Source: Actinopolyspora xinjiangensis (GTDB taxonomy: Bacteria > Actinomycetota > Actinomycetes > Mycobacteriales > Pseudonocardiaceae). From it: DNA of 64,000 nt. The DNA lies in assembly GCF_900104475.1 (NCBI RefSeq), contig NZ_FNJR01000002.1, positions 310,001 to 374,000 on the forward strand. The letters run 5' to 3'. The stretch's first letter is position 1. The number at the start of each line of letters is the position of its first letter. The position numbers were made by a program, and so were the translations under genes. Under the pieces are notes generated by a model. It was not told the origin of the DNA. It did not search any database and was given only the letters and a program-made list of their open reading frames with translations. Positions 8,364 to 28,160 of the stretch are shown one piece after another.

Positions 8364-8570
8364 TTCCCAAAATGTGGGACGAATCATTCCGCCAATTGGG
8401 TGAAAATCTAGCTGAATCGAGAAAGAAAGTGACGGCTTTGTGACAGCTCATTGTCGTGAACTGTGTCTCGCTTATGTTTACGCTCGCACTCATCCGACGA
8501 CCCGAGGTCGTCGGCGTGGCGACCCTCGTCCTCCCCGGCGAGGAGTCACGTAGACAGCGGGAGGAATTTG

Positions 8571-10229
8571 ATGCGCAAGCGACGCATGGTCGCGCCGGTC
8601 GCGGCATCGCTGTCGGCGGCCCTGCTGGCAGCGGGCTGCGGCGGCGGTGGCGGCAGCGCCGTCACCGAGGCAACCGGCACCCTGGAAGACCCGATCACGG
8701 TGGACTGGACCGAGCCGGAGAACCCGCTGGTTCCCGGCAACACCACGGAGGTCGGCGGCGGAAATGTCGTCGACGCCATGTTCACCGGCCTCGTCGAGTA
8801 CGACCCGAAGACCTTCGAGCCGTACAACGCCATGGCGAAGTCGATCGAGGCCTCCGACGACAAGAAGACCTACACGGTCAAGCTGAAGCAGGGCTGGAAG
8901 TTCCACAACGGTGAGGAAGTCACCGCCGACAACTTCGTGCGGGCCTGGAACTACACCGCCTACGCGCCCAACGGTCAGAAGACCGCCAGCTTCTTCGACA
9001 ACATCAAGGGCTTCGACGAGGTCAACCCGCCGGACCCGGACGGGGAAACCGGCCCGAAGGAAGCCCCCGACCCGAGCGCGGAGAAGATGTCCGGGCTCAA
9101 GGTCGTCGACGACCACACCTTCGAGGTCACCCTCAAGCAGCCCTTCACCATCTTCCCGACGACCCTGGGGTACTCGGCCTTCTCCCCGCTGCCGGAGAAG
9201 TTCTTCAACGACAAGGAAGCCTTCGAGAGCGAGCCGATCGGCAACGGCCCGTACAAGTTCGAGAAGCGCACCCCCAACCGCAGCCTCACCATGACTCGCT
9301 ACGAGGACTACAAGGGCGAGCACAAGGGTGAGGTCGAGGCCTTCAAGTTCAAGGTCTACCAGAAGCTCTCGACGGCCTACCGCGACCTGAAGTCGGGCAA
9401 CCTCGACTTCATGCGGCAGGTGCCCACTTCCGCGCTGGTCGACAACCGCTGGAAGGAGGAGCTCGGCGACAACGCGCTCACCCGTGAGGGAGCGCTGGTC
9501 ACCCCGCTGAGCTTCCCGCTCTACGACGAGAAGTTCCAGGATCCGAACCTGCGCAAGGCCATCTCGATGGCCATCGACCGCGAGAGCATCGTCAAGAACG
9601 TCTTCTCCGGGACGCGTGAGGCGCTCCGAGGATGGTCCGCCCCCGGTACCCCCGGCCGTGACGGCGAGGCCTGCGGCCAGTGGTGCGAGTACGATCCAGC
9701 CAAGGCCAAGGAGTACCTGAAGAAGGCGGGCGGCTTCGACGGCACGCTGACGATCTCCAGCAACGCCGACGGCGGCCACGAGGAGTGGATCAAGGCCGTG
9801 GCGGGCAGCATCCGCGACACCCTGGGCATCGAGGTCTCCTACAACCCGGTTCCCACGTTCAGCGAGTTCCGCTCCTCGATCGCCGCGAACCAGATGACCG
9901 GGATGTTCCGCAGCGGATGGGTCGCCGACTACCCGAGCATCCAGAACTACCTGGCCCCCATCTACACCAGGGGCGGTTCCTCCAACGACAGCGGTTACTA
10001 CAACCCCGAGTTCGAGAAACTGATGAGCCGGGCGGACCAGGCCCCCACGGTCGACAAAGCCAACGAGCTCTACGCTCAGGCGGAGAAGCTGCTGGCCGAG
10101 GAGATGCCGACCGTGCCGATCTACTCCCAGAACGTGCAGTCGGGCAAGTCGGATCGCCTCGCCGAGGCACAGGTGACCAAGCGCCGTTCGTTGTCGCTGA
10201 CATCGGTGAAGATCGCCCAGCCGAAGTGA
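8571..10229 (+). CDS. Oligopeptide ABC transporter substrate-binding lipoprotein
   Basis: 552 residues from ATG 8571, with GGGAGGAA immediately upstream; the longer open frame has no such site. The signal peptide MRKRRMVAPVAASLSAALLA ends in lipobox AAGC, so it is a lipid-anchored receptor. It is an SBP family 5 (OppA/DppA) protein: DPITVDWTEPENPLVPGNT, LEVTLKQPFTIFPTTLGY-like strand, IGNGPYKFEKRTPN, the helix NLRKAISMAIDRESIVKNV and MFRSGWVADYPSIQNYL. It has the extended length of peptide binders. First gene of a five-gene importer operon; ligand class (peptide) is inferred from family and operon. Confidence 0.93.
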   Translation: MRKRRMVAPVAASLSAALLAAGCGGGGGSAVTEATGTLEDPITVDWTEPENPLVPGNTTEVGGGNVVDAMFTGLVEYDPKTFEPYNAMAKSIEASDDKKTYTVKLKQGWKFHNGEEVTADNFVRAWNYTAYAPNGQKTASFFDNIKGFDEVNPPDPDGETGPKEAPDPSAEKMSGLKVVDDHTFEVTLKQPFTIFPTTLGYSAFSPLPEKFFNDKEAFESEPIGNGPYKFEKRTPNRSLTMTRYEDYKGEHKGEVEAFKFKVYQKLSTAYRDLKSGNLDFMRQVPTSALVDNRWKEELGDNALTREGALVTPLSFPLYDEKFQDPNLRKAISMAIDRESIVKNVFSGTREALRGWSAPGTPGRDGEACGQWCEYDPAKAKEYLKKAGGFDGTLTISSNADGGHEEWIKAVAGSIRDTLGIEVSYNPVPTFSEFRSSIAANQMTGMFRSGWVADYPSIQNYLAPIYTRGGSSNDSGYYNPEFEKLMSRADQAPTVDKANELYAQAEKLLAEEMPTVPIYSQNVQSGKSDRLAEAQVTKRRSLSLTSVKIAQPK

Positions 10230-10312
10230 GTGTGAGTCAGTAGGGCAGTCGCCCGGTTCGTCACCGCCAAAAGCGGCGGCGGGCCGGGCCTGTCCGTGTC
10301 GAAGGAGGTTCG

Positions 10313-11239
10313 GTGGGCCGATACATACTGCGGCGCCTGCTGCAGTTGATTCCGGTTTTCATCGGAACGACGTTCATCATCTATTCCCTCGTGTGGGCCC
10401 TGCCAGGGGATCCCTTCGCGGGCAAGTGCGGATCCCGAGCTTGCCCGGAGGCCTACGTCCAGATGATGACCGAGAAGTACAATCTCGACGAACCGTTGCC
10501 GGTGCAGTACGTGCTGTACCTGGGGCAGCTGTTCCAGGGCAACTTCGGAGAGACCTTCTCGGGACTCGAGGTCAGTACGCTGATCCAGAACGCGTACCCG
10601 GTCACCATCAAGCTCGCGGCGATCGCGCTGGTCTTCGAGGCCGTGATCGGTATCGCGGCGGGAATCCTGACCGCGCTGCGCGGCAACGGCTTCGTGGACA
10701 ACCTCGTGCTGGCCGCGACCCTGTTCCTGATCGCCGTGCCGGTCTTCGTCAGCGGTTTCGTGGTGCAGATCGTCTTCGGCGTCCAGCTGGGCTGGATGAA
10801 CCCCTCGGTCAGTACCGATCCGACCATCGGCGAGCTGGTGGTTCCCGGGCTGATTCTCGGCAGTCTGTCCATGGCCTACATCGCCAGGCTCACCCGCACG
10901 GCGATGTTCGAGAACAAGCGCGCGGACTACATCCGCACCGCCAACGCCAAGGGGCTCAAGCCGCGCCGGGTCGTCTCGGTGCACATGCTGCGCAACTCGC
11001 TGATCCCGGTGATCACCTTCATCGGCACCGACTTCGGTGCGCTGATGGGCGGGGCCATCGTGACCGAGGGCATCTTCAACATCCCCGGCATCGGCAACCT
11101 CGTCTTCCAGGCGATCGGCGGCCAGGAAGGAACAACCGTTACGGGCGTCGTCACCCTGCTAGTGATCGTCTACCTGCTGATGAACCTGCTGGTGGACATT
11201 CTCTACGCGGCTTTGGACCCGAGGATCCGATATGACTGA
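10313..11239 (+). CDS. Oligopeptide ABC transporter permease (OppB/DppB type)
   Basis: 308 residues from GTG 10313, with GAAGGAGG at 10301-10308. The N-terminal helix MGRYILRRLLQLIPVFIGTT is the DppB/OppB start, and the protein has about six membrane helices. The BPD_transp_1 segment ADYIRTANAKGLKPRRVVSV contains the EAA-like loop that contacts the ATPases. It ends with the family-typical DILYAALDPRIRYD. The stop overlaps the OppC start by 8 nt, indicating coupled translation. Confidence 0.94.
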   Translation: MGRYILRRLLQLIPVFIGTTFIIYSLVWALPGDPFAGKCGSRACPEAYVQMMTEKYNLDEPLPVQYVLYLGQLFQGNFGETFSGLEVSTLIQNAYPVTIKLAAIALVFEAVIGIAAGILTALRGNGFVDNLVLAATLFLIAVPVFVSGFVVQIVFGVQLGWMNPSVSTDPTIGELVVPGLILGSLSMAYIARLTRTAMFENKRADYIRTANAKGLKPRRVVSVHMLRNSLIPVITFIGTDFGALMGGAIVTEGIFNIPGIGNLVFQAIGGQEGTTVTGVVTLLVIVYLLMNLLVDILYAALDPRIRYD

Positions 11240-12200
11240 ATCAATCCGAGAGCAGGCGGATTCGACGGACACCGCGAACACCGGCGACCAGGATGTCTCG
11301 CGTTCCGGCGAGCAGAAGCCCAAGCTCGAAAAGCAAGTGGGACTCTGGGGCGACGCCTGGCGCGACCTGCGCAAGCGCCCGTTGTTCATCGTGGCCAGCA
11401 TCATCATCCTGCTGCTGGTGGTGATGTCGGCGTTCCCGTGGTTGTTCACCTCCGTCGATCCCAACGAACAGCTGCTCAGCAAGGCGAGGCAGGGGCCCTC
11501 GCCCGAAGCGTGGTTCGGCTACGATCACCTCGGCAGGGACGTCTACGCCCGGGTGATCTACGGCACCAGGTCCTCGATCCTCGTCGGAGTGCTCGCGACT
11601 TCCCTGACCGTGGTACTCGGTTCGATCTTCGGACTGATCTCCGGTTACTTCGGCAGGAAGACGGACGTACTGGTCTCCAGGTTCGCCGAGATATTCCTGG
11701 GGCTGCCGTTCGTGCTCGGCGCGATCGTCATCCTGTCGGTGTTCAACGCGGGGATCACCAGCCCCAGCGGAGTCCGGGTCATGAGCCAGGTGGTCCTGAC
11801 CATCGGCGTGCTGGCCTGGCCTATCTCGATGCGCATCATGCGTTCGGCGGCCATCGCGGCCAAGCAGCAGGACTACGTCAACGCCGCCAAGGCGCTGGGT
11901 GCCAGCCACAGCAGGATCATCTTCAAGCACGTGCTGCCGAACTGCATCGCTCCGGTGATGGTCTACGCCACCATCGCGCTGGGCCAGATGATCGGGCTGG
12001 AGGCGACGCTGTCCTACCTGGGGCTCGGGCTCAAGGCGCCGGTCGTCTCCTGGGGAATGATGATCTCGGTCTCGCAGCAGTACATCATCAGCACGCCGCA
12101 CATGCTGCTGTTCCCCGCGGGCTTCCTGGTGATCACGGTTCTGGCGTTCGTGATGCTCGGTGACGCGGTGCGCGACGCGCTGGACCCGAAACAACGGTAG
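11232..12200 (+). CDS. Oligopeptide ABC transporter permease (OppC/DppC type)
   Basis: 322 residues from ATG 11232. A polar N-terminal extension (about 45 residues) precedes the OppC_N helix (LFIVASIIILLLVVMSAFPW). Further hallmarks are HLGRDVYARVIYGTRSSILVG, GYFGRKTDVLVSRFAEIFLGL (split here only for naming), the EAA loop QDYVNAAKALGASHSRIIFKH and C-terminal GDAVRDALDPKQR. It partners OppB as the second half of the membrane channel. Confidence 0.93.
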   Translation: MTESIREQADSTDTANTGDQDVSRSGEQKPKLEKQVGLWGDAWRDLRKRPLFIVASIIILLLVVMSAFPWLFTSVDPNEQLLSKARQGPSPEAWFGYDHLGRDVYARVIYGTRSSILVGVLATSLTVVLGSIFGLISGYFGRKTDVLVSRFAEIFLGLPFVLGAIVILSVFNAGITSPSGVRVMSQVVLTIGVLAWPISMRIMRSAAIAAKQQDYVNAAKALGASHSRIIFKHVLPNCIAPVMVYATIALGQMIGLEATLSYLGLGLKAPVVSWGMMISVSQQYIISTPHMLLFPAGFLVITVLAFVMLGDAVRDALDPKQR

Positions 12201-12214
12201 TAAGGAGGGCCGCT

Positions 12215-13234
12215 GTGTCGGCTACCGACGAGAGCACGGGCGGCTCGACGAAGCCGCGGCTGCTCGAAGTGGAAGACCTGCACGTCGAGTTCCGCACCCG
12301 CGAGGCCACGGCCAACGTGCTCAACGGAGTGGGGTATCACGTCGACGCGGGGGAGACCCTCGCCGTGCTCGGCGAGTCCGGCTCCGGCAAGAGCGTCACG
12401 GCGCAGAGCGTGATGGGCATCCTGGACACTCCGCCGGGCTTCGTGACCAAGGGCGCCATCCGTTATCGCGGTGAGGAGCTCCTCGCCGCGACGGAGGACC
12501 GTCGCCGTGAGTTGCGGGGCGAGAACATGGCGATGATCTTCCAGGACGCGCTCTCCGCGCTCAACCCGGTTTACACCGTGGGATTCCAGATCGCCGAGCA
12601 GTTCCGATTCCGGCGGGGGATGTCGCGCAAGGACGCGATGGCCAAGGCCGCCGAGATGCTGGACATGGTCAAGATCCCCAACGCCAAGCAGCGCGTGAAG
12701 GAGTTCCCGCACCAGTTCTCCGGCGGTATGCGGCAGCGCGCCATGATCGCCATGTCGTTGGCGCTGGACCCGGACCTGCTCATCGCCGACGAGCCGACCA
12801 CCGCGCTGGACGTGACGGTGCAGGCCCAGATCATGGATCTGCTCGACGAGCTGCGCCGCGAACGCGGCATGGGAATGATCCTGATCACCCACGACCTCGG
12901 TGTGGTCGCCGAGGTCGCCGACCGCATCGCGGTGATGTACGCCGGTCGGGTGGTGGAGGAATCCGACGCGGAGTCGCTGTACGAGCGCCCCGCGCACCCC
13001 TACACCGAGGGGCTGATGGAGTCCATTCCCCGGCTGGACCAGAAGGGCGAGCAGCTGGCCAGCATCAAGGGGCTCCCGCCCAACCTCGCGAACATCCCGG
13101 AGGGGTGCCCGTTCCACCCGCGCTGCCACCGCGCCACGGACGAGTGCCGCCGGAAGGTTCCGGAATTGCTCGAACTCCGCCCCGGGCGCTACAGCGCCTG
13201 CCACTTCGCCGAGGAGTTGATCAGCAGTGAGTGA
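12215..13234 (+). CDS. Oligopeptide ABC transporter ATPase (OppD/DppD type)
   Basis: 339 residues from GTG 12215, behind AAGGAGG. Walker A is GESGSGKS, the Q-loop region is [17 protein letters not shown], the signature is FSGGMRQR, Walker B is [12 protein letters not shown] and the H-loop is [10 protein letters not shown]. The oligopeptide_HPY C-terminal domain is present, with its Cys cluster in [15 protein letters not shown] and again near the end. Its 3' end overlaps the next gene by 8 nt. Confidence 0.95.
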
Positions 13235-14261
13235 GCCGATCCTGCAAGTTCGCGACCTGGTCAAGCACTTCCCGGTGCAGCAGGGGATCGTGTTCAAAAA
13301 GACCATCGGCCACGTGCGGGCGGTGGACGGGGTCTCCTTCGACCTCAACCGGGGTGAGACGCTGGGCATCGTCGGCGAGTCCGGCTGTGGCAAGTCCACA
13401 CTGGCCCAGGTGCTGATGCGGCTGGAGCAGCCCACCAGCGGCAGCGCGCTGTTCGAGGGCGTGGACATGTTCGGCAAGAAGAGCGCCTCCCAGCTTCGTC
13501 AGCTGCGCAGGGACATGCAGATCGTGCTGCAGGACCCCTACACCTCGCTGAACCCCCGCAAGACGGTGGGCGACATCGTGGGGGAGCCGTTCGAGATCCA
13601 TCCCGAGGTGGCGCCGAAGGGCGACCGGCAGCGGCGGGTGCAGGAGCTGCTCGACACCGTCGGGCTCAACCCGGAGCACGTGCGGCGCTATCCGCACCAG
13701 TTCTCCGGTGGGCAGCGGCAGCGGATCGGCATCGCCCGCGCGCTGGCGCTCAAGCCCAAAGTGATCGTCTGCGACGAACCGGTGTCCGCGCTGGACGTCT
13801 CCATCCAGGCACAGGTGATGAACCTGCTGGGGGACCTGCAGTCCGAGTTCGGCCTGTCCTACATCTTCATCGCCCACGACCTCGGAGTGGTGCGCCACCT
13901 CTCCGACCGGGTGGGTGTGATGTACCTGGGCAAGATGGTCGAGAACGGCACCGAGGAGCAGATCTACGAGCACCCGCAGCATCCCTACACCCAGGCGCTG
14001 CTGTCCTCGGTTCCCGTCCCCGACCCTTCGGTGCGCGACCGCAGAGAGGCCATCCGGCTCACCGGCGACGTGCCCAGTCCGGCGAACCCGCCATCCGGCT
14101 GCCGGTTCCGCACCAGGTGCTGGAAGGCGCAGGACATCTGCGCCGAGCAGGAGCCCGAGCTGGCCGTGCGGCGCGACGGCGGCCGCATCGACCTCGAACT
14201 GGCCGACGGTCACCCCAGTGCCTGCCACTTCGCCGAACGGCACGAGCACGTCGTCTCCTGA
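13227..14261 (+). CDS. Oligopeptide ABC transporter ATPase (OppF/DppF type)
   Basis: 344 residues from GTG 13227. It starts with the OppF-like [20 protein letters not shown]. Walker [10 protein letters not shown]-loop [16 protein letters not shown], signature [15 protein letters not shown], Walker [14 protein letters not shown]-loop [10 protein letters not shown] and the C-terminal Cys-rich HPY region are all intact. With OppD it forms the nucleotide-binding heterodimer. Last gene of the operon, followed by a strong hairpin. Confidence 0.95.
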
Positions 14262-14596: not shown

Positions 14597-16075
14597 TCAC
14601 CGAGAGACGAACTCCGCGAGATCGGCGGACTGCTTGATCCGCGAGGGTTCGTGCACGTACATCATGTGTCCGGCGGGGTAGTAGCGGACCTCGATGTTGT
14701 CGCGCAGTTCCCTCGGGATCTCCAGCTGGGCCAGGGTGTGCTCGGCCGCGAAGTACGGCGTGGCGCCGTCGGTGTGACCGCATCCCACGTGCACCCGCAG
14801 GTGCGGATTGGTGCGCATCGCCTTGGCCAGCTTGTCCGTGGCGGTCACCGACATCCCCTCGAAGTCCTCGTAGGACCACGGGTGGACCCGTGCCGAGAGC
14901 ACCTCGTAGGGCAGGTCGCTGGCGTAGTCCAGTTCCTGCCGCAGGTAGTGGTTGATCCCCGCCGAGTAGGCCCCCATGACTCCCGAGACGCTGGGGTCGT
15001 CGGAGAGGTGCTCGCCGCCCGCGTCGGGTTCCCAGCCGGTGAAGCGGCCGTCCATCCGGCCGACGGTCAGGCGCTGGTCCCGCAGCAGCTCGGTGAAGAA
15101 CCGCAGGTGCTCGATCCGCAGGTTCACCCGGTCCACGTAGTCGTGGCTCAGCCCGGTCAGCTCGGCGGTGCGCCGGACCATCTCGGCGCGGTCCTCGTCC
15201 GACAGCCGGGCACCCTTCCGCAGCGCCCAGGGGTAGTCCCGCGAGGCGAACTCCTCGGCCTCGTCCAGCACCTCGCGCAGCGGCCGTTCCCCGTGCTTGC
15301 CGTGGTGGTGCGCGATCGCCGCGTAGGTAGGCAGGTACAGGCTGTAGGGCAGATCGTTGCCCTCGGTGAAGCGTATGGTCCCCATGTCCAGCACCGCCGA
15401 GATCAGCAGCAGCCCGTTCGGGTAGAGCCCGTGCTTGCTCTGCAGGTGCTCGGCCAGCGAAGCCGCCCGCAGCGTGCCGTAGGATTCCCCGGCCAGGTAC
15501 TTGGGGGACAGCCAACGGCCGTTGCGCGTGGTCCACAGCCTGATCAGCTCCGCCACCGACTCGATGTCGCGCCGGTAGCCGTGGAAGTCGCCCGGCTTGC
15601 CGCCCCGTACCGCTCGGGAGAACCCGGTGGAGACCGGGTCGATGAACACCAGGTCGCTGTGGGCCAGCAGCGTCTCCGGATTGTCCGCCAGGCCGTACGG
15701 GGGCGCGGCGAGCTGGCCGGCGTCCCCGGAGACCACCCTGCGCGGTCCGAGGAGCCCCAGGTGCAGGAAGGTGCTGGCCGCTCCCGGACCACCGTTGAAC
15801 GCGAACGTGACCGGTCGGTCCCCCGAGCCGGGGGAGTCGGCGACGTAGGAGGTCACGAACATCTCCGCGCCCGCGACGTGCCCGTCGAACTTGCCGTCGG
15901 TGTAGCTCTCCTCCCGCAGCACGTACCGGCCCGCCGTGGCGGTGTAGGAGAGCTGCTTGCCGTTGGCCGTGATCGTGTGGTGCGTGCTCACGAGCTCGTC
16001 GGTCGGCTCGGCGGTGGTCGTGCTCGATTGCCGGCTCGCTTCGCCGGTGTTGTCGGTTTCCTCACTGGCTGTCAT
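14597..16075 (-). CDS. S10-family serine carboxypeptidase-like protein
   Basis: 492 residues from ATG 16075 (MTASEETDNTGEAS), chosen because the upstream extension is low-quality sequence. It is an alpha/beta-hydrolase of the serine carboxypeptidase family: the oxyanion region FAFNGGPGAASTFLHLGLLG, nucleophile motif LAGESYGTLRAASLAEHL, a late Asp region (HVGCGHTDGATPYFAAEH) and the His motif YYPAGHMMYVHEPS. No signal peptide is seen, unlike secreted eukaryotic members; the N-terminal 30 residues are polar. Bacterial members are usually annotated as S10 peptidases without a known substrate. It is convergent with the oligopeptide transporter, so a role in peptide use is possible but unproven. 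Confidence 0.88.
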   Translation of the reverse strand: MTASEETDNTGEASRQSSTTTAEPTDELVSTHHTITANGKQLSYTATAGRYVLREESYTDGKFDGHVAGAEMFVTSYVADSPGSGDRPVTFAFNGGPGAASTFLHLGLLGPRRVVSGDAGQLAAPPYGLADNPETLLAHSDLVFIDPVSTGFSRAVRGGKPGDFHGYRRDIESVAELIRLWTTRNGRWLSPKYLAGESYGTLRAASLAEHLQSKHGLYPNGLLLISAVLDMGTIRFTEGNDLPYSLYLPTYAAIAHHHGKHGERPLREVLDEAEEFASRDYPWALRKGARLSDEDRAEMVRRTAELTGLSHDYVDRVNLRIEHLRFFTELLRDQRLTVGRMDGRFTGWEPDAGGEHLSDDPSVSGVMGAYSAGINHYLRQELDYASDLPYEVLSARVHPWSYEDFEGMSVTATDKLAKAMRTNPHLRVHVGCGHTDGATPYFAAEHTLAQLEIPRELRDNIEVRYYPAGHMMYVHEPSRIKQSADLAEFVSR

Positions 16076-16764
16076 AGGGCGCAGCCTAGTAGTGCGATGT
16101 TTCGTCCCGCTGCGCTCGGCCGCACGACGTTCCCTGCCGCCTCTTTGTGCTCTCGGTTCCGGCACGCGTACTCGACAGTTGGTACTTCGCTCGCTCCAAC
16201 GGAGCATCAAATCCGAAAGGGCGTTCCGAAGGGACTCCGTGAGGTTCGTCGGCGTGAGGTTCGTCGGCGCGGGGCCGAGAACCACGGCATGATGTGCGCT
16301 CTCGAGCAGGTATGCACCGACGGGGATCGAAGATCATCGAATGTGGGCTACGACCGTGGGGGTCAGGCTGCCGATCAGGAAAGTTCATCCGTCGGTGACG
16401 AAGAGGCGTCGCTACCGCCCGTTTCTGCCCAGGGGGTTCGTGTCCGTCGTGTCTGTTCTCCCGTGCCGTTGATGAATCGGACTTCGGGGTAGCACCGCGC
16501 GTTTCGTGCTGGTGCCGTGTCAACGCTGCGTAAGAGCCGTGTCAGTGAAGTGCGTCATGGTCGTTGTGACTTGCCTCGGCATGCGAAATGAGGGGGCACG
16601 GTGTTCGGACAGGTGGGTGGCGGAAGCGATATTGCTGACTACCTCCCGCGAGCTGTGAACACAGTCGCAGTACGTGCGATCGGAACAGCGATCGCACGGT
16701 CGCTGAAAACCCGATGATTACCAGGATGGATCAAGCTGACTTCGTGTGAGAGATGGACTGAAAT
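16076..16764. other. 690-bp gap upstream of the dehydrogenase cassette
   Basis: No protein-like frame is found in this gap; the open frames are Arg/Ser-rich noise on both strands. It is more A/T-rich than its surroundings towards the right. It contains a short direct duplication (GTGAGGTTCGTCGGC twice around 16239-16270) and the 10-bp inverted repeat described separately. It probably carries the control region of the operon that starts at 16765, or is a scar of insertion. Confidence 0.4.
16673..16698. promoter_or_regulatory. 10-bp perfect inverted repeat upstream of the cassette
   Basis: CGTGCGATCG at 16673-16682 and CGATCGCACG at 16689-16698 are exact inverted copies around a 6-nt spacer (GAACAG). 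The centre is about 80 bp before the ATG at 16765. This is the size and geometry of a dimeric-regulator operator. A leader hairpin is the alternative. The cognate regulator is not encoded in the cassette. Confidence 0.5.
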
Positions 16765-17838
16765 ATGGCCACGGATATGTCGGCACTCGCTTTTTTGGGA
16801 ACGAACAAGGTAGGAGTGGTCAACAAGGAAATCCCCTCTGCGGGGCCGTGCGACGTCGTGGTGCGTACCACCACGTCGATGATCTGTCCCACGGACGTGC
16901 ACACGGTCAGTGGTGTGTTCGCGATTCCTGAGGGGCGCACTCTCGGTCATGAGAGCGTAGGGGTGGTGCACGAGATCGGTGATCAGGTTACCGGATTCCG
17001 CGAGGGGGACAGGGTGGCGGTGTGCGCGATAACCCCTTGTGGAAAATGCGATTATTGCCAGCGAGGTCATTCGGCTCAGTGCAACGGAATGTTGGGCGGG
17101 TACAAATTTACTGCTCAAAAAGAGGGGGCGTTGGCCGAATATTTTCACGTGAGCGACGCCGACTTCAATCTCGTTCATGTTCCGGACGCGCTCTCCGATG
17201 AGCAGGCATTGTACGCCAGCGATGTTCTGACGACCGGGTTGGCCGGTGCGGAAGCCGCACAGGTCCCGCCCGGCGGCACCTTGGTCATCGTCGGCCAAGG
17301 TGCGGTGGGGCTGTGCGCGACGCTTTCCGCACGGCTCTTGGGGGCGGGGCTCGTCATCACCGTTGCCACGAAAGCCGACCGGGCGAGAATGTCCGAGAAG
17401 TTCGGTGCCGATGTTGTGCTGGATCCACGACACGGTGATCCGGTCGATCAGGTCAAGGACATCGTGGGACGGGACGGAGTCGATGCGGCGATCGAGGCGG
17501 TAGGATCGCGCTCCACTTTTGAAACATGTGTCCGGGTGACGAACGCGATGGGTACGATCGTGAATCTCGGATACCACGGGGAGGGAACCACCGCGCCGTT
17601 GACCGTCCCGGTCATTCCGTTCGGGCTCGGTATGAGCGACAAAACTATACGAGCGGTTCTCTGCCCCGGCGGGCGCGAGCGTATGCTGCGCCTTTTTCGG
17701 TTGTTGCGGAACGGTCGGGTCGACCCGACTCCCATGACTACGCATCGTTTTGGTTTCGATGATGTCGAGCGCGCCTACAAAATGATGTCGAACAAGAGTG
17801 ACGGAATAATTAAGCCGCTTGTCACGTACGCCTGGTGA
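16765..17838 (+). CDS. Zinc-dependent secondary alcohol dehydrogenase (MDR family)
   Basis: 357 residues. The alignment in memory is best to the clostridial/Thermoanaerobacter NADP-dependent secondary alcohol dehydrogenases: LGTNKVGVVNKEIPSAG, GHESVGVVHEIGDQV, GEYFHVND-like AEYFHVSDADFNLVHVP, DVLTTGLAGAE, VGQGAVGLCATLSARLLGAG and KTIRAVLCPGGRERM. Catalytic-zinc ligands are Cys41, His62/Glu63 and the Asp in ASDVLTTG. It also has a four-Cys structural-zinc loop (CGKCDYCQRGHSAQC) that those enzymes lack. It should interconvert a small ketone and a secondary alcohol; acetoin-like substrates fit the neighbourhood (inference). A weak GAGAGA lies upstream of the ATG. Codons with A/T third bases are clearly more frequent than in neighbouring genes. 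Confidence 0.88.
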   Translation: MATDMSALAFLGTNKVGVVNKEIPSAGPCDVVVRTTTSMICPTDVHTVSGVFAIPEGRTLGHESVGVVHEIGDQVTGFREGDRVAVCAITPCGKCDYCQRGHSAQCNGMLGGYKFTAQKEGALAEYFHVSDADFNLVHVPDALSDEQALYASDVLTTGLAGAEAAQVPPGGTLVIVGQGAVGLCATLSARLLGAGLVITVATKADRARMSEKFGADVVLDPRHGDPVDQVKDIVGRDGVDAAIEAVGSRSTFETCVRVTNAMGTIVNLGYHGEGTTAPLTVPVIPFGLGMSDKTIRAVLCPGGRERMLRLFRLLRNGRVDPTPMTTHRFGFDDVERAYKMMSNKSDGIIKPLVTYAW

Positions 17839-17874
17839 TCAGGTCGAAGCTCTGTTGAATCGAGGAAATGCTTG

Positions 17875-18909
17875 ATGGTTGATTATTTCGGTCGAGCTGG
17901 TGTGATAGGTTGTGGATACGATGTTCCGCGCCACGTTCGGCGCAACGACGATCCGGCCTACGATCAACTCAACAGATCCAGGAACAGGCACGGGTTGTTC
18001 GAGTCCGACATGTTCTACGGGCTGGACAGGAGACGTTTCCTCGAGGCGGATGAAACCGTTGAGGATTTGATGGAGAACGCATGTCTGAGAGCGCTCGACA
18101 GGGCGGGGGTGTCACCTGATTCCATCGACCGGCTGTACGGGTACGGAAGTGTGCCCGCCTACTACATGCCGAACGGGTTGTTCGCCGTTCACCAGCGGGT
18201 GGGGATTTCTGAGAATGCGATGGTGGTTCCGATCAACTCGGAGTACGCCAATTTTCTGCTTGGAATGATACACGCCGCTGAATTCGTTAACTCGGGAAGT
18301 GGTAGATACGCTCTCGTCGTATGCGGCTGCAACTGGACCGGGTACATGGACTATACGAGAGGCCACGCGTTCAGCATCGGTGACGGGGCCGGAGCCGCGG
18401 TCGTGGGGCCGTCCGATGATTTCGCTGTCGTCGACCATGAGGTGCGGACTTTCAGCGACCACTACCACGCGTTGACGATGGGGATGCGTACGACGAAGGT
18501 GACGGGGCGTACCCAGTTACCGGTGGATCCCCGCACCAACCTTCCGGTACCCACCTACGACATGACCGATTCCGGAGTCGAGATACTGGGAACGGTGATG
18601 CGGGACGGGATTCCGGATCTGGTTCACAGTGTGCTCGGGCGTCACGATATCGATCCGGGGAAAGTCGCGTTGATCACGCACCAGGGATCCAAGCTGCTGA
18701 TGGAGCACTGGGGAGAGCGTATCCAGCCCGGAGAATACTTGGAAACGCTCGCCGAGTACGGGAACATGACGCTGGCTACCTACCCCGTCAATCTGGCGCA
18801 CTTCTTCGACGAAATCAATTCGGATTACCTGGTGATCGCTGCTGTGGGGGCGGGAGTGTATCTTTCCGTTTTGCTTCTTTCCAGGAACAGCACGAAGAAG
18901 GAAGAGTAA
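17875..18909 (+). CDS. KAS III (FabH)-like thiolase-fold protein without catalytic Cys
   Basis: 344 residues from ATG 17875 (GAGGA 8 nt upstream; a TTG one codon earlier is less likely). The thiolase fold is clear: SIGDGAGAAVVGPSDDF, the nucleophile-elbow region, ITHQGSKLLMEHWG and EYGNMTLATYPVNLAHF. His269 and Asn297 occupy the KAS III catalytic His and Asn positions. At the nucleophile position the FabH AACAGF motif is replaced by SEYANF, so the Cys aligns with Tyr124. Classical Claisen condensation via an acyl-Cys intermediate is therefore unlikely. Acyl transfer, decarboxylation or a structural role remain possible. One in-frame TTA codon (18517-18519, Leu215) is present, rare in such genomes. 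It lies 36 bp after the dehydrogenase and 2 bp before the acetolactate synthase. Confidence 0.85.
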   Translation: MVDYFGRAGVIGCGYDVPRHVRRNDDPAYDQLNRSRNRHGLFESDMFYGLDRRRFLEADETVEDLMENACLRALDRAGVSPDSIDRLYGYGSVPAYYMPNGLFAVHQRVGISENAMVVPINSEYANFLLGMIHAAEFVNSGSGRYALVVCGCNWTGYMDYTRGHAFSIGDGAGAAVVGPSDDFAVVDHEVRTFSDHYHALTMGMRTTKVTGRTQLPVDPRTNLPVPTYDMTDSGVEILGTVMRDGIPDLVHSVLGRHDIDPGKVALITHQGSKLLMEHWGERIQPGEYLETLAEYGNMTLATYPVNLAHFFDEINSDYLVIAAVGAGVYLSVLLLSRNSTKKEE

Positions 18910-18911
18910 AA

Positions 18912-20696
18912 ATGTCCGAGCGTCGGAGTAAGTCGGACCGAGATACGGAGAACAGTTTGATTTCCGGTGCTTCCGCGCTCGTTCGGGCTCTTGAAGAGGA
19001 AGGTGTTGAGGAGATCTTCGGGATACCGGGAGGAGCGATTCTGCCCTTCTACGACGCGCTTTTCCGGTCGAGGAGAATTCGTCATGTTCTGACGCGTCAC
19101 GAACAAGCGGCGGGATATGCCGCTACCGGGTATGCCGCGGTGAGTGGGCGCGTCGGGGTTTGTGTCGCCACGTCCGGGCCCGGCGCGACCAACCTGATCA
19201 CGCCGATCGCCGACGCCTTCATGGATTCGGTTCCCGTGGTAGCCATAACCGGCCAAGTCCCCACCGATGCCATCGGAACCCAAGCATTCCAGGAGACGGA
19301 CGTCATCGGCATAACGAAGCCGATTACGAAGTGGAATCACCAGCCGCGAACGGTGCGCGAGATACCCGAGGTCGTGCGAGACGCCTTCGACACGGCCAGG
19401 TCCGGACGTCCGGGCCCGGTGCTCATCGACATCCCCAAGGATGTCCTCCAGAAAGAGGACCGAATCGAGGGTGCTCTTCGAGCGCCCCCCGAGCCTCGTT
19501 CCTCGACGGAACCTCCGAGCACGCAAGGAATCAACCACGCGGCTGAGCTGCTACTGCGAGCGCGCAGACCTGTCCTCTACGTGGGCGGTGGTGTGGTCCG
19601 AGCCAGCGCTCAGAAGGAGCTGGAGCGCTTGGCCGAGCTGACGAACGCACCGGTGACGACCACTTTGACGGCGCGTGGGGCGTTTCCGGACTCGCAGCCA
19701 CGATGCCTTGGTATGCCAGGTATGCACGGCTCGGTTGCCGCTGTGTACGCGTTGCAACGAAGCGATCTGCTGGTCGCGTTGGGAACCAGGTTCGACGACC
19801 GCGTCACGGGCGAACTCTCGAGTTTCGCTCCGAAGGCGAGAGTCGTTCATGCGGATATCGATCCCGATGAGATCGGTAGAAAGCGAGCCCCCGACGTAGG
19901 TCTGCTCGGTGATGTCGCGAACACCCTGAGGGAGCTGCTGGATGCCCTCCGGAAGTTGTGTAACCAAGGGGATGCATTTTACCTGGACTCGTGGTGGGAA
20001 GAGCTCGACGGCGTTCGTTCCCGTTTTCCGCTGGGCTGGGAAGAGCCCCTTGATGGAAAGCTCTCTCCGCAGCATGTGATCAAGCGGCTGGGCGAGCTCG
20101 CCCGGCAGGACACGATATTTACGTTGGGCGTTGGTCAGCACCAGATGTGGGCGGCACAGCTTCTGTCGCTCGACGAGCGGCGTCGTTTGATCACCTCCGG
20201 TGGCCTCGGGGCCATGGGTTATGCGATTCCGGCGGGTATAGGGGCGAAGCTCGCGAGCCCGCACAGGACAGTATGGGTTATAGACGGTGACGGGTGCCTG
20301 CAGATGACCGGTATGGAACTCATTACATGCGTGCTCGAGAAGATTCCGGTCAAGGTTGCCGTCATAGACAACGACAGCCTGGGTATGGTGCGTCAGTGGC
20401 AAAATCTTTTCTATGGAGAGCGCTACAGCGATACCGACCTGTACACGCACCAAGGTCAGGGGTTGCGCATCGCCGAGTTGGCCGAAGCCGTGGGATGCGT
20501 AGGGATCAAGTGTGAGACGCCGGCGGAAATCGACTCGGTGATAACGCGGGCCGAGGAGATCGTTGACAGGCCGGTGGTGATCGATTTTGTGGTAAGCAAG
20601 CAGGAGATGGTGTGGCCCATGGTGGAGCCCGGAAAGCCGAACGACGAAATCATGGTTTCCCGGGAATTCCGCCCGCGGTTCGACGCGGAAGAATAA
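18912..20696 (+). CDS. Acetolactate synthase, large (catalytic) subunit type
   Basis: 594 residues with all three ThDP-enzyme domains: PYR domain with the activating Glu in TRHEQAAGYAATGYAAVSG and the SGPGATNLITPIADA loop; central FAD/DHS-like domain (LVALGTRFDDRVTGEL, HADIDPDEIGRKR); PP domain with TSGGLGAMGYAIPAGIGAKL, the GDGCLQMTGMEL Mg-ThDP motif and IDNDSLGMVRQWQNLFY. This is the AHAS rather than the pyruvate oxidase pattern. It should join two 2-keto acids with loss of CO2 to an acetohydroxy acid. No regulatory subunit (ilvN) or ilvC is adjacent, so it is probably not the housekeeping valine/isoleucine enzyme. AAGGAAGAG lies before the ATG. It follows the KAS-like gene by 2 bp. Confidence 0.93.
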   Translation: MSERRSKSDRDTENSLISGASALVRALEEEGVEEIFGIPGGAILPFYDALFRSRRIRHVLTRHEQAAGYAATGYAAVSGRVGVCVATSGPGATNLITPIADAFMDSVPVVAITGQVPTDAIGTQAFQETDVIGITKPITKWNHQPRTVREIPEVVRDAFDTARSGRPGPVLIDIPKDVLQKEDRIEGALRAPPEPRSSTEPPSTQGINHAAELLLRARRPVLYVGGGVVRASAQKELERLAELTNAPVTTTLTARGAFPDSQPRCLGMPGMHGSVAAVYALQRSDLLVALGTRFDDRVTGELSSFAPKARVVHADIDPDEIGRKRAPDVGLLGDVANTLRELLDALRKLCNQGDAFYLDSWWEELDGVRSRFPLGWEEPLDGKLSPQHVIKRLGELARQDTIFTLGVGQHQMWAAQLLSLDERRRLITSGGLGAMGYAIPAGIGAKLASPHRTVWVIDGDGCLQMTGMELITCVLEKIPVKVAVIDNDSLGMVRQWQNLFYGERYSDTDLYTHQGQGLRIAELAEAVGCVGIKCETPAEIDSVITRAEEIVDRPVVIDFVVSKQEMVWPMVEPGKPNDEIMVSREFRPRFDAEE

Positions 20697-20872
20697 TTCC
20701 GTTTCCGTGTGTCGCTCAGGTGTACGGCGGTTCGCCGGGCGAGCCGGTGAATGATCCGTACCTCGCGGGTGGGGAAATCGTTGAACTTTCGTGACAGCAA
20801 CGATCATCGGGGCAACCGGCCCGGCGGCCCGCGTGAGCCCGCCCGGGACTCGGCCCGCACGGATGTGCCACC

Positions 20873-21658
20873 GTGAACGCGGTGAACGAGACGTATTCCC
20901 GGCCGCTCGTCCCGGCGGAGGTCGAGCCGGTCGGTTCGGCGGCCGGGGCCGCGACGTTGGCCGAGCTGGACGAGGCGGTCACCCACTGCTCCGCCTGTCC
21001 GAGGCTGGTGAACTGGCGCGAGCGGGTGGCCACGGAGAAACGCGCCGCCTTCCGGGAGCAGTCGTACTGGGTCAGGCCCGTGCCGGGATTCGGACCCGCG
21101 GACGCCTCGCTGGCACTCGTGGGGTTGGCCCCGGCCGCCCACGGCGCCAACCGCACGGGGCGCATGTTCACCGGGGACCGCTCCGGAGAGGTGCTCTACC
21201 GCGCGTTGTTCGACGTGGGCCTGGCCTCGGCACCGAACTCCGAGTCGGCCGACGACGGTCTTCGACTGTACGGTACGCGGATCACCGCCCCGGTGCGGTG
21301 CGCCCCTCCGGCGAACAAGCCGACCCCAGCCGAGCGCGACACCTGTTCTCCGTGGCTGGCGCGGGAGCTGGAGCTGCTGCGTCCGACCCTGCGGGTCGTG
21401 GTGGTGCTGGGCGGTTACGGCTGGCAGGCCCTGCTCCCGGTCCTGGCTGCGGCCGGGTGGGAAGTGCCCCGCCCGAAACCGAGGTTCGGGCACGGCGCGC
21501 GGGTCAAGCTGGGCGGTGCCGGAGGTGGTGCGCTGTTGCTGCTGGGCTGCTACCACGTCAGCCAGCAGAACACCTTCACCGGCAGGCTCACCCCGGAGAT
21601 GCTGCGTGCGGTGCTCACCGAGGCGAGAGACGCGGCTGGACTGGGCCCGGGCGGCTGA
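20873..21658 (+). CDS. Family-5 uracil-DNA glycosylase (UdgB type)
   Basis: 261 residues from GTG 20873; a GTG three codons later is also possible, and neither has a clear Shine-Dalgarno. The Fe-S Cys pattern CSACPRLVNWRE with a later C..C pair (RCAPPANKP, DTCSPWL) is present. Motif A is GLAPAAHGANRTGRMFTGD, in the family-5 form that lacks the usual Asp/Asn water activator. Motif B is HVSQQNTFTGRL. This matches M. tuberculosis UdgB (Rv1259), which removes uracil and other deaminated bases from DNA. It returns to high-GC codon use, unlike the cassette before it. Confidence 0.92.
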   Translation: MNAVNETYSRPLVPAEVEPVGSAAGAATLAELDEAVTHCSACPRLVNWRERVATEKRAAFREQSYWVRPVPGFGPADASLALVGLAPAAHGANRTGRMFTGDRSGEVLYRALFDVGLASAPNSESADDGLRLYGTRITAPVRCAPPANKPTPAERDTCSPWLARELELLRPTLRVVVVLGGYGWQALLPVLAAAGWEVPRPKPRFGHGARVKLGGAGGGALLLLGCYHVSQQNTFTGRLTPEMLRAVLTEARDAAGLGPGG

Positions 21659-25037: not shown

Positions 25038-26066
25038 ATGAAGAGATCGTCCCGTGTCTTATCCCTGACCTGCCTGATTCCGCTCGGTGTCGGACTGCTG
25101 ACCGCGTGCGGTGGCGGTTCTGAGACCTCCGCCGGTCAGGACAACGCCGCCGGATACCCCAGGACCGTCGAGAACTGCGGCAGGGAGATCACGATCGAAG
25201 CCCCGCCGGAGCGCGCGGTCTCGCTGAACCAGGGCTCGACCGAGATCCTGCTCTCTCTCGGTCTCGCCGACCGCATGGTAGGCACCGCCACCTGGACCGA
25301 CCCGGTTCTGAAGGAGCTGGAGGAAGCCAATTCGAAGGTTCCCAGGCTCGCGGACAACGCCCCCTCCTACGAGCGGGTGCTGGCCGAGGAACCGGACTTC
25401 GTCTCCGCGTCCTTCGAGAGCACCTTCCAGGAGGTCTCCTCGCGCGACGACTTCGCCGAGCTGGGCGTGCCCACCTATCTTTCCCCGGCCGACTGCGTCA
25501 AGAACAACGAGGGCGACGGGGACGGTTCCCGCGACCAGCCGTTGGAGATGAGCACCGTCTACCGGGAGATCGAGGAGCTCGCGCGGGTCTTCGACGTCCC
25601 CGAACGGGGTGAGGAGCTCGTCGAGGAGCTGCGCGGCAGGCTGGATAAGGCATCCGCCGACATCGACGCCTCCGGCGTGAGCATGCTCTACTGGTTCGCC
25701 AACAAGGAGTCGCCCTACATGGCCGGCTGCTGCGGCGCCCCCGGCATCATCACCGAGGAGATCGGCGCGAAGAACGTCTTCGACGACACGAAGAAGGAAT
25801 GGCCCCAGATCAACTGGGAGACCGTGGCCCAGCGCGATCCCGACGTGCTGGTCATCGGTGACCTGACCCGCGAGAGCCAGACCGCGGAGGAAGCCGCCCA
25901 GAAGATCGAGTTCCTGGAGAACAACCCGGTCACCAAGCACATGGACGCCGTGCGCGACGACCGCTACATCCGGCTCAGCGGTGCCGCCATGAACCCGTCG
26001 ATCCGCACCGTAGACGGGGTGGAACGGGTCGCGGCCAAACTGCGTGAGTTCGGGCTCGCCGAGTGA
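25038..26066 (+). CDS. btuF: Cobalamin/Fe-chelate ABC substrate-binding lipoprotein (BtuF-like)
   Basis: 342 residues from ATG 25038 with GAGAAGGA upstream. The signal peptide ends in lipobox LLTAC (Cys24 region), so the protein is a lipoprotein. It has the two-lobe periplasmic-binding fold III: NCGREITIEAPPERAVSLNQ, STEILLSLGLADRMVGT, ERVLAEEPDFVSAS and QINWETVAQRDPDVLVIGD. The family covers B12, haem and ferric siderophores; the riboswitch points to B12. It overlaps the permease start by 4 nt (GTGA). Confidence 0.9.
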   Translation: MKRSSRVLSLTCLIPLGVGLLTACGGGSETSAGQDNAAGYPRTVENCGREITIEAPPERAVSLNQGSTEILLSLGLADRMVGTATWTDPVLKELEEANSKVPRLADNAPSYERVLAEEPDFVSASFESTFQEVSSRDDFAELGVPTYLSPADCVKNNEGDGDGSRDQPLEMSTVYREIEELARVFDVPERGEELVEELRGRLDKASADIDASGVSMLYWFANKESPYMAGCCGAPGIITEEIGAKNVFDDTKKEWPQINWETVAQRDPDVLVIGDLTRESQTAEEAAQKIEFLENNPVTKHMDAVRDDRYIRLSGAAMNPSIRTVDGVERVAAKLREFGLAE

Positions 26067-27100
26067 GCGCTCCGCTGGTCCGGTCGCGCGGAGGTGCCGC
26101 CGCCGCTCTCTGGCTGGCCGGTCTGGTGCTGCTCGGGCTCTCCATCGCCCTCACCATCACGATCGGCCCGGCCGACATCGCCGTGACCGACGTGTGGGCG
26201 GTGGTGGGTGAGCGCCTCGGTTTCGGTGACGCCGGGCTCTCGTTGATCCGCGAAGGGATCATCTGGGACCTGCGGCTGCCTCGCACCGTGCTGGCGGCGG
26301 TGTGCGGGGCCGGGCTCGGGCTGTGCGGCGTGGTCATGCAGTCCCTGCTTCGCAACCCGCTGGCCGACCCCTACGTGCTGGGGATCTCCTCGGGGGCCTC
26401 CACCGGAGCGGTGCTGGTCGTGGTGCTGGGCATCGGCAGCGGGGTGCTCTCGTTGTCGCTCGGCGCGTTCCTCGGTTCGCTGGTCTCGTTCACGCTGGTG
26501 ATGCTGCTGAGCCACTTCGTGGGCGGTACCGCCGATCGCGTGATCCTCGCCGGTGTCGCGGCCATGCAGCTGTTCTCGGCGCTGACCTCGTTCATCGTGA
26601 TGTCGGTCGCCGACTCCCGGCAGACGCGCAGCGTGCTGTTCTGGCTACTCGGCTCGTTGAGCGGTACCGGCTGGTTCGAGGTGTGGTTGTGCCTGGGCGC
26701 GCTGTTGGCGGTGCTGGTGGTGTGCACCGCCAAGGCGAGTTCGCTGGACGCGTTCACCTTCGGCCAGGACGCGGCCGCCTCGCTCGGTGTCGCGGTGGCG
26801 CGCACCAGGATGCTGCTACTGGTGGTGACGGCACTGCTGACGGCCACGCTGGTCAGCTCCTCCGGGGCCATCGGTTTCGTGGGACTGGTGCTGCCGCACG
26901 CGGCCCGCGCCATCGTCGGCCCCGGACACCGCGGATTGCTGCCCACCACCGCGCTGGCGGGGGCGATCTTTCTGGTGTGGATCGACACGATCGCGCGGAC
27001 GGCACTCGACCCACAGGAGATCCCGGTGGGCGTCATGACCTCGTTGGTGGGGGTGCCCGCGTTCGTGGTCATCCTCTACCGCAGCCGCAAGGTGCACTAG
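26063..27100 (+). CDS. btuC: FecCD/BtuC-family ABC permease
   Basis: 345 residues from GTG 26063. About ten membrane helices of the FecCD family. Signatures: IIWDLRLPRTVLAAVCGAGL, VVMQSLLRNPLADPYVLGIS, GASTGAVLVVVLG, SGAIGFVGLVLPHAARAIVG and the C-terminal GVPAFVVILYRSRKV. It forms a homodimeric channel with the BtuD ATPase. The operon is interrupted after this gene by a hairpin repeat. Confidence 0.92.
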   Translation: MSAPLVRSRGGAAAALWLAGLVLLGLSIALTITIGPADIAVTDVWAVVGERLGFGDAGLSLIREGIIWDLRLPRTVLAAVCGAGLGLCGVVMQSLLRNPLADPYVLGISSGASTGAVLVVVLGIGSGVLSLSLGAFLGSLVSFTLVMLLSHFVGGTADRVILAGVAAMQLFSALTSFIVMSVADSRQTRSVLFWLLGSLSGTGWFEVWLCLGALLAVLVVCTAKASSLDAFTFGQDAAASLGVAVARTRMLLLVVTALLTATLVSSSGAIGFVGLVLPHAARAIVGPGHRGLLPTTALAGAIFLVWIDTIARTALDPQEIPVGVMTSLVGVPAFVVILYRSRKVH

Positions 27101-27129
27101 CTGGAATCCGTCGGCTCGGTTTCCGCGGC

Positions 27130-27275
27130 CGGTCGCGTGGCGGAACCTCTCGCGGGCTCTCGCTCCGGGAGGCCCGACATCGAGTAGGTACTACACGACG
27201 GGGCCTTCCTCGCGAGCGCACCACGAGAGGACCCGCGGCGGTGCCGATGGGAAGTGTGGTGGTTCGGTGCCGGGA
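27130..27275 (+). repeat. Dispersed hairpin repeat, copy 4, between btuC and btuD
   Basis: Core 27140-27236. Left arm 27140-27163 (GCGGAACCTCTCGCGGGCTC...) and right arm 27212-27236 (ending GAGAGGACCCGC). The loop dyad is GACATCGAGTAGGTACTACACGACG-like. It begins 40 bp after the btuC stop and fills most of the 295-bp gap before btuD. Pairing is poorer than in copy 1. Confidence 0.75.
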
Positions 27276-27395
27276 GCGCCGAAGCAGCCGGGGAACAGGC
27301 CGACTCCACGCGCTCCGTGACTGGAGAACGACCACACAGCCGGTGTCTCTACCGGAGAAGGCAAGTTTCGTTACGAATGGCGGGGAGCGACGCTC

Positions 27396-28160
27396 ATGAG
27401 TTTGTCGGCGGAGGAGGTCTCCTGGCGCACCGGTGGGAAGCTGATAGTCGACGGTGTCAGTATCGCCCCGGGTGAGGGGGAGACCGTCGGCCTGCTGGGC
27501 CCCAACGGGTCGGGCAAGTCGAGCCTGCTGCGACTGCTGTCGGGAGTGCGTCCGGTATCGGACGGTGTGGTCCGGCTCGACGGTTCCCCGATCGAGCGGT
27601 TCGGTCGGGGGAACGTGGCTCGCAGGGTGGCCGTGGTCGAACAGCACGCGGGAACCGAGGTGGACATGAGCGTGCTGGACGTGGTCCGCCTCGGCCGCAT
27701 CCCGCACCGGCGCGCGTGGTCGGCCGCGACGGCCGAGGACGAGGCGGCGGTGCGCTCGGCCGTGGAGTACACCAGGTTGGCGGACAAGGTCGACCGGTCC
27801 TGGCACACCCTCTCCGGCGGGGAGCGCCAGCGGGTCCAGATCGCGCGGGCACTCGCCCAGCAGCCGAAGGAGCTGCTGCTGGACGAACCCACGAACCACC
27901 TGGACATCCAGCACCAGCTGGAACTGCTGGGGCTGGTGGTCCGGATTCCGGTGACCAGCGTCATCGCGCTGCACGACCTCAACCTCGCAGCCATGTTCTG
28001 CGATCACCTGATGGTGCTCGCGCGGGGGCGTGCCGTGGCGGCGGGCTCCCCGGAAGAGGTGCTCACCGAGGAACTCATAGCCGAGGTCTACAACGTTCGT
28101 GCCCGCGTGGCCCCGGAGGGGCCGGGAGGACGTCCCGCCATCCGGTTCTTCCCGGACTGA
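27396..28160 (+). CDS. btuD: Cobalamin/Fe-chelate ABC transporter ATPase (BtuD-like)
   Basis: 254 residues. Walker A is GPNGSGKSSLLRLLSG, the Q-loop region is VAVVEQHAG, the signature is LSGGERQRVQIARALAQ, Walker B is LLLDEPTNHLD and the H-loop is IALHDLNLAAMFCDH. It matches FepC/BtuD ATPases and energises BtuC. The ATG at 27396 follows GGGGAGCG. Because copy 4 of the repeat lies between btuC and btuD, btuD may be differentially expressed within the operon. Confidence 0.92.
   Translation: MSLSAEEVSWRTGGKLIVDGVSIAPGEGETVGLLGPNGSGKSSLLRLLSGVRPVSDGVVRLDGSPIERFGRGNVARRVAVVEQHAGTEVDMSVLDVVRLGRIPHRRAWSAATAEDEAAVRSAVEYTRLADKVDRSWHTLSGGERQRVQIARALAQQPKELLLDEPTNHLDIQHQLELLGLVVRIPVTSVIALHDLNLAAMFCDHLMVLARGRAVAAGSPEEVLTEELIAEVYNVRARVAPEGPGGRPAIRFFPD

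Follow-up and report, generated by a model that had tools for sequence, protein, structure and literature searches.

KAS III enzymes are regarded as Cys-His-Asn catalysts that work through an acyl-enzyme, and in FabH the His/Asn pair drives the decarboxylation of malonyl-ACP, while Trp32, Arg36 and Arg249 contact CoA or ACP. Some KAS III-like subunits, PqsB among them, are known to be inactive. Acetolactate synthases, for their part, feed the alsS-alsD-bdhA route to acetoin and butanediol. As far as the accessible parts of two reports go, actinomycete carbazole biosynthesis combines a KAS III-like enzyme (CqsB1 or NzsJ) with an acetolactate synthase (ALS)-like ThDP enzyme (CqsB3 or NzsH), and uses in addition the CqsB2 cyclase, an ACP and indolepyruvate; CqsB1 is presented there as a condensing enzyme that keeps its Cys, and enzymes of its kind use acyl-ACP (PMC7466098, PMC10100901). 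The KAS III-like fold has also been reused in secondary metabolism by the ester-forming enzymes CerJ, Pau29 and XclB/XclC, the last two from xenocyloin biosynthesis, according to the portion of the source available to us (PMC4425429).

We analysed a 64,000-nucleotide stretch of the Actinopolyspora xinjiangensis genome (hereafter, the window), in which a KAS III-like gene (17875..18909, + strand) runs from an ATG at 17875 to a stop at 18909 and encodes 344 amino acids. Residues are counted from this ATG, which lies three bases 3′ of the mechanical TTG start. The protein matched PF08545 (43.7 bits, cut-off 24) and PF08541 (28.9 bits, cut-off 26.6), and its score with the fabH model TIGR00747, 77.4 bits, was far below the cut-off of 292.1. 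Alignment with E. coli FabH placed Tyr124 (codon TAC, 18244-18246) on Cys112, His269 (CAC, 18679-18681) on His244 and Asn297 (AAC, 18763-18765) on Asn274. Among the alignments listed from 56 matches to solved structures, three out of four set a Cys opposite Tyr124 and the remaining one, with the PqsD chain 3h78, an Ala.

A first scan of the genome collection with this single protein as query found no relative. A second scan of the genome contigs, using a five-row alignment as profile, returned 22 loci. Two plasmid records, the window itself and 11 loci added from Bacteroidota and the class of Thermosporothrix extended the family set to 36 loci, 35 of which (window included, four phyla) span the nucleophile column. 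This column held Phe in 29 and Tyr in 6 members (the window, three Saccharopolyspora, Flavisolibacter and Cnuella) and Cys in none, versus Cys in all 24 other KAS III-type proteins of a comparison set taken from the same 11 genomes, some of them distant. When both sets were aligned together, the triad His and Asn were kept in 35 out of 35 family members. The position of FabH Leu142 was invariably Trp in the family, and that of Phe157, which is Phe in 24/24 comparison proteins, was Ala, Ile, Val or Leu in 35/35. Likewise, Trp32, Arg36, Asn247 and Arg249 were absent from every member, with Lys at the Arg249 position in seven, versus their retention in 15, 14, 21 and 18 of the 24 comparison proteins, respectively. 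At Arg151 the family alignment had no Arg, and the pairwise FabH alignment paired Arg162 of the window protein with this residue.

The initial annotation had proposed a KAS III-like protein that keeps the fold, the His and the Asn and in which Tyr124 replaces the nucleophile. At the level of sequence comparison this was confirmed: the FabH alignment and the joint alignment of 35 family and 24 comparison proteins both put Tyr124 on Cys112, both Pfam domains are above their cut-offs, and the His/Asn pair is invariant. Cys150 and Cys152, which had been named as residues that might occupy the nucleophile position instead, lie 26 and 28 residues C-terminal of Tyr124, and their columns are Cys in only 18/35 and 2/35 members; they were discarded as the true nucleophile. 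The same column in the homologs, devoid of Cys, indicated that the Tyr was not a sequencing error. Two other ideas had to be revised. The nucleophile was not the only residue lost, given the changes at Leu142, Phe157, Trp32, Arg36, Asn247 and Arg249 in 35/35 members; since Leu142 became Trp and Phe157 a smaller residue throughout, the pocket seems to have been rebuilt and not merely emptied. Moreover, a reactive role for the Tyr itself was at odds with the Phe found in 29 of the 35 members.

Two bases 3′ of the KAS III-like gene lies an acetolactate synthase large-subunit paralog, a ThDP enzyme (18912..20696, + strand) that scored 680.6 bits with TIGR00118 (cut-off 538.35); an ilvB elsewhere in the genome (G000:C11:386144-387838) scored higher, with 751 bits. 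The paralog reached 880.4 with NF005860, just below the cut-off of 881, and contains the catalytic Glu64 and the ALS Trp496. The linkage to an acetolactate synthase noted initially proved to be a property of the whole family, as 35 of the 36 loci, all gathered by searching with the KAS-like protein alone and without a ThDP query, had a gene for an ALS-family ThDP enzyme within the cluster. The sole locus without a nearby ThDP gene (L116 7385-8473) comes from a Ktedonobacteria genome that carries three copies of the KAS-like gene. In Flammeovirga (L007), about 7 kb separate the ThDP gene from the KAS III-like gene, and in the clusters with an amine oxidase described below one gene stands between the two. 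The catalytic Glu was kept in 35/35 ThDP partners, and the cofactor motif GDG read GDA in two of them. The ALS Trp was present in the partners of the window and the three Saccharopolyspora, and the other 31 had Gly (30) or Leu (1). Park et al. reportedly described a Thermosporothrix acyloin synthase in 2014 (cited in PMC6497799), which may correspond to the Thermosporothrix ThDP gene of L015. The ALS partners of Saccharopolyspora (L014 5830-7899, L012 5803-7899 and L013 5568-7664) are about 100 amino acids longer than that of the window, with a C-terminal tail that resembles, by eye, an ilvN-like ACT domain.

Phylogenetic analyses distributed these partners over two lineages. In a smaller ThDP tree, whose control set was 13 rows chosen by a motif filter, 23 partners formed one clade (100/98) and three window/Saccharopolyspora rows fell among ilvB; adding the eight other ThDP loci outside the filter left the main result unchanged. 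A wider tree, with 18 + 3 partner rows and, from the same genomes, 20 further ThDP enzymes, again joined the 18 sampled partners in one clade (99/97) and placed the window and two Saccharopolyspora partners among ilvB (100/99). With the rows of the smaller tree, a single clade for all partners was rejected (p-AU 1.95e-7). The KAS III-like proteins of the window and Saccharopolyspora nest inside their own family, adjoining Nocardioides, while their partners sit among ilvB; hence, the ThDP partner appears, from the trees, to have been replaced by an ilvB copy while the KAS III-like gene remained. We also considered two separate ALS recruitments, one in the window lineage and one in Saccharopolyspora. 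The starred forks of the smaller tree suggested them, yet a single clade for the window and Saccharopolyspora partners was not rejected (p-AU 0.07) and the fork was unsettled in the wider tree with more rows. Thus, the wider tree supported the replacement and weakened only the idea of two recruitments. What both partner lineages have in common is ALS-type chemistry.

The first gene of the window cassette encodes a zinc-type medium-chain alcohol dehydrogenase (16765..17838, + strand; PF08240, 86.1 bits; PF00107, 82 bits) that is 57.6-58.4% identical to the alcohol dehydrogenases of the three Saccharopolyspora cassettes. The three genes occupy an island (16094..20803) between an S10-like peptidase gene (- strand) and a UDG-family gene (+ strand). 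By BLAST, the corresponding site of one congener aligned to window positions 15901-16093 and 20804-21011, the two matches overlapping by 4 bases where they meet, so that 16094-20803 are 4.7 kb that are extra in the window. Peptidase and UDG genes were adjacent, without the cassette, in the five congeners examined, drawn from a genus sample of nine, and no KAS-like gene was found in any of the nine at E 1e-40. The G+C content of 16700-20720 was 59.4%, versus 68.4% for the window, whose lowest-G+C 4-kb step begins at 16501. Acquisition of the island by transfer is likelier than its loss in the other congeners. Outside the island, the window carries transporter genes at 8463-14261, by eye an oligopeptide-type ABC system with one ATPase confirmed, and at 25038-28160, by eye an iron-siderophore-type ABC system.

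Compared with the alsS-alsD-bdhA route, the window cassette likewise joins an acetolactate synthase to a zinc alcohol dehydrogenase, but a KAS III-like gene lies where the decarboxylase gene would be, as a putative stand-in. Its product resembles FabH in fold family, His244/Asn274 equivalents and Pfam domains and differs from it in having an aromatic residue for Cys112 and in the residues lost across the family. The closest described parallel is the carbazole system, with which the family shares its clustering with an ALS-like ThDP enzyme. Closer CqsB1 homologs were sought in 386 Actinomycetota genomes, of which 54 gave a match, at 25-31% identity. On plasmid NZ_CP108777.1 of Embleya sp. NBC_00896, a candidate carbazole-type cluster (L125 3824-9528, record 1087823-1093527) was recognised by its gene content and order: a ThDP enzyme, a 235-aa protein in the CqsB2 position that gave no Pfam match, a KAS III-like protein, a prenyltransferase-type (squalene/phytoene synthase-like) protein and a classical KAS III. 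This region is without protein genes in the PLSDB table. The Embleya KAS III-like protein retains the catalytic Cys (DNGCCAW) as well as the His and Asn, in contrast to the Tyr/Phe of the Cys-less family. It also lacks Trp32, Arg36, Arg151 and Arg249 of FabH; the Phe in place of Arg36 is common to it and the family, and a Met after the triad Asn is common to it and the window protein. In the trees it joined the Cys-less family at 91/88 (branch 2.5) and its ThDP enzyme fell in the partner clade at 100/98, the program flagging long branches in both cases. Unlike the carbazole pathway, the window island showed, besides the three cassette genes, neither an ACP-like nor a CqsB2-type-cyclase-like ORF when ORFs of at least 40 aa in its margins were inspected by eye.

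Judging from these sequence comparisons, the reading that we favour, tentatively and at somewhat less than even confidence, is that the family are KAS III-fold enzymes that act without an acyl-enzyme on the product of the ThDP partner by means of the His/Asn pair, most simply as decarboxylases. The KAS III-like protein would bind the free beta-keto acid released by its partner, and His269 and Asn297 would remove CO2. The resulting enediolate would then be protonated to an acyloin or, less likely, be trapped by a second substrate, and in the window and Saccharopolyspora only, the zinc alcohol dehydrogenase would interconvert the hydroxyketone with a diol or diketone. The window route would therefore parallel that from acetolactate through acetoin to butanediol, the KAS III-like protein replacing acetolactate decarboxylase. 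The Tyr or Phe would fill the vacated Cys place and shape the pocket without being a nucleophile; in the simplest case, the family retained the decarboxylation of beta-keto acids and gave up the part of the reaction that needs an acyl-enzyme.

The invariant His/Asn pair, the complete lack of Cys and the coherent change of the pocket support a decarboxylase free of a nucleophile. Action on the partner's product is supported by the ThDP enzyme at 35/36 loci with its catalytic Glu in 35/35 partners, and by the ALS-type chemistry common to two partner lineages. We also counted in favour of decarboxylation the joining of the Embleya pair to both the KAS family and the ThDP clade, albeit on long branches, and the keto-acid supply genes of some clusters. 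Acetolactate decarboxylase (PF03306) was found in none of the 16 genomes searched and in 3 of 14 controls; this absence says little, since 11 of the 14 controls also lack it. Against a decarboxylase, we counted the GDA motif of two partners. In addition, acetolactate slowly loses CO2 unaided, so that an enzyme is not strictly required, and CqsB1, a condensing enzyme with its Cys, is a precedent for condensation and not for bare decarboxylation.

That precedent, as outlined in the parts of the carbazole reports that we could consult, speaks for a decarboxylative C-C coupling, the main competitor. By analogy, the enediolate would attack a non-covalently bound acyl thioester or aldehyde, as in CqsB1 minus its Cys. 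The shared Phe at Arg36, the Met after the Asn and the 91/88 grouping, with its flagged long branches, are consistent with it. We nonetheless consider it unlikely, as no ACP- or cyclase-like ORF was seen by eye in the window island and those KAS III-like enzymes that the available portions of the literature describe have Cys or Ser at the nucleophile place. A non-covalent acyltransferase that would esterify the hydroxyl of the ThDP product, in analogy to CerJ and XclB/XclC, is improbable to a greater degree. Ester formation by KAS III-like enzymes is documented, with XclB/XclC in xenocyloin biosynthesis, but within the part of that source available CerJ and Pau29 have Cys or Ser where 35/35 family members have Phe or Tyr (PMC4425429). 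Most FabH CoA residues are also lost, a point weakened by the same loss in the CqsB1 homolog: as this homolog is without most of them too, their absence is weak evidence against thioester use, and we dropped it as a proof.

The linkage to a ThDP gene and the loss of the nucleophile could also denote a pseudo-enzyme, a non-catalytic partner or regulatory subunit controlling the activity or stability of the ThDP enzyme, for which inactive KAS III-like proteins, PqsB for example, offer a precedent. His, Asn and the Trp at position 142 are, however, invariant in 35/35 members, which points to a working pocket, and the association of one family with two ThDP lineages is easier to reconcile with a shared product than with a conserved subunit interface; we regard such a role as rather unlikely, a little less so than acyl transfer. 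A decayed or mis-sequenced FabH, which the loss of the Cys by itself might suggest, has next to no probability given the aromatic column in 35/35 members of four phyla, the open frame and the recurrent clusters. In this respect the early proposal of a changed chemistry rather than decay held up, as far as conservation of the aromatic residue, His and Asn and the recurring ALS-type linkage can tell. If the decarboxylase reading is true, the decarboxylation half of the KAS III reaction would be able to proceed by itself with a free beta-keto acid, and a Cys-less clade linked to one type of partner enzyme would be a compact, testable two-enzyme system. The location beside a ThDP enzyme that joins carbons also hints at an unfamiliar route that processes the keto-acid product of this partner.

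The clusters were of three types: (a) alcohol dehydrogenase, KAS-like and ALS genes in the window and three Saccharopolyspora; (b) ThDP and KAS-like genes in Ktedonobacteria, Nocardioides and Microvirga; and (c) ThDP, amine oxidase and KAS-like genes at 17 loci, counting Flammeovirga, the amine oxidase being called by similarity in the 17, with Pfam matches for four proteins at three loci. In Ktedonobacteria, a membrane protein gene adjoins the pair at 12/13 loci (L015 5950-7110, L016 4030-5172, L018 5936-7036 and L113-L122 except L116); three of its products were examined and have four or five hydrophobic segments, and the two that were scanned gave no Pfam match above cut-off. Three of these loci contain a prephenate dehydratase gene (L015 by Pfam, L016 and L115 by similarity), and a Nocardioides locus contains an isopropylmalate synthase-like gene. 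From these extra enzymes we infer alpha-keto acid supply as a common theme. In Microvirga, a PAS histidine kinase and a response regulator are encoded upstream. At 15/17 type (c) loci, from Pseudomonadota and Bacteroidota, the genes are followed by a convergent cyclase-AAA gene (by similarity, with Pfam on two) whose product has about 1,300-1,400 aa (L008 10993-14946; L020-L032 and L124, adjoining the KAS-like gene). Flammeovirga has a kinase-AAA-GAF-SpoIIE gene instead, and one type (c) locus stops at the contig end.

A nucleophile-free KAS III-like protein and an ALS-type enzyme might be the central pair of an undescribed alpha-hydroxyketone pathway in four phyla whose product, in several lineages, would be a signal for a sensor encoded alongside: the cyclase-AAA protein in Rhizobiaceae, Rhodobacteraceae and Chitinophagaceae, the kinase-AAA-GAF-SpoIIE protein in Flammeovirga, the PAS histidine kinase with its response regulator in Microvirga and the membrane protein in Ktedonobacteria. 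We consider this picture speculative and doubtful as a whole, and any signalling role of the clusters is one that we infer. The recurrent clusters point to metabolites not described in the literature searched. Searches on the gene combination, Cys-less KAS III and the signal idea, with subscription journals mostly outside their coverage, gave no description of the family among the matches listed.

In a tree of 28 family members and 25 other rows, the family was one side of a single branch (support 100/100, stem 2.7). It is also rare. At a threshold of E 1e-40, the KAS III-like gene was present in 4 of 297 genomes of the window's taxonomic family, its own counted, and in 1 of 396 genomes of its phylum sample, its own. 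The class of Thermosporothrix yielded matches in 10 of 47 genomes, three of them already in the set. In the phylum samples centred on Microvirga and on Flavisolibacter, 2/299 and 2/296 genomes matched, counting the centre genome in each, and one more match corresponded to L024, already in the set. A search of a phage collection returned nine records, with 24-25% identity among the five matches listed.
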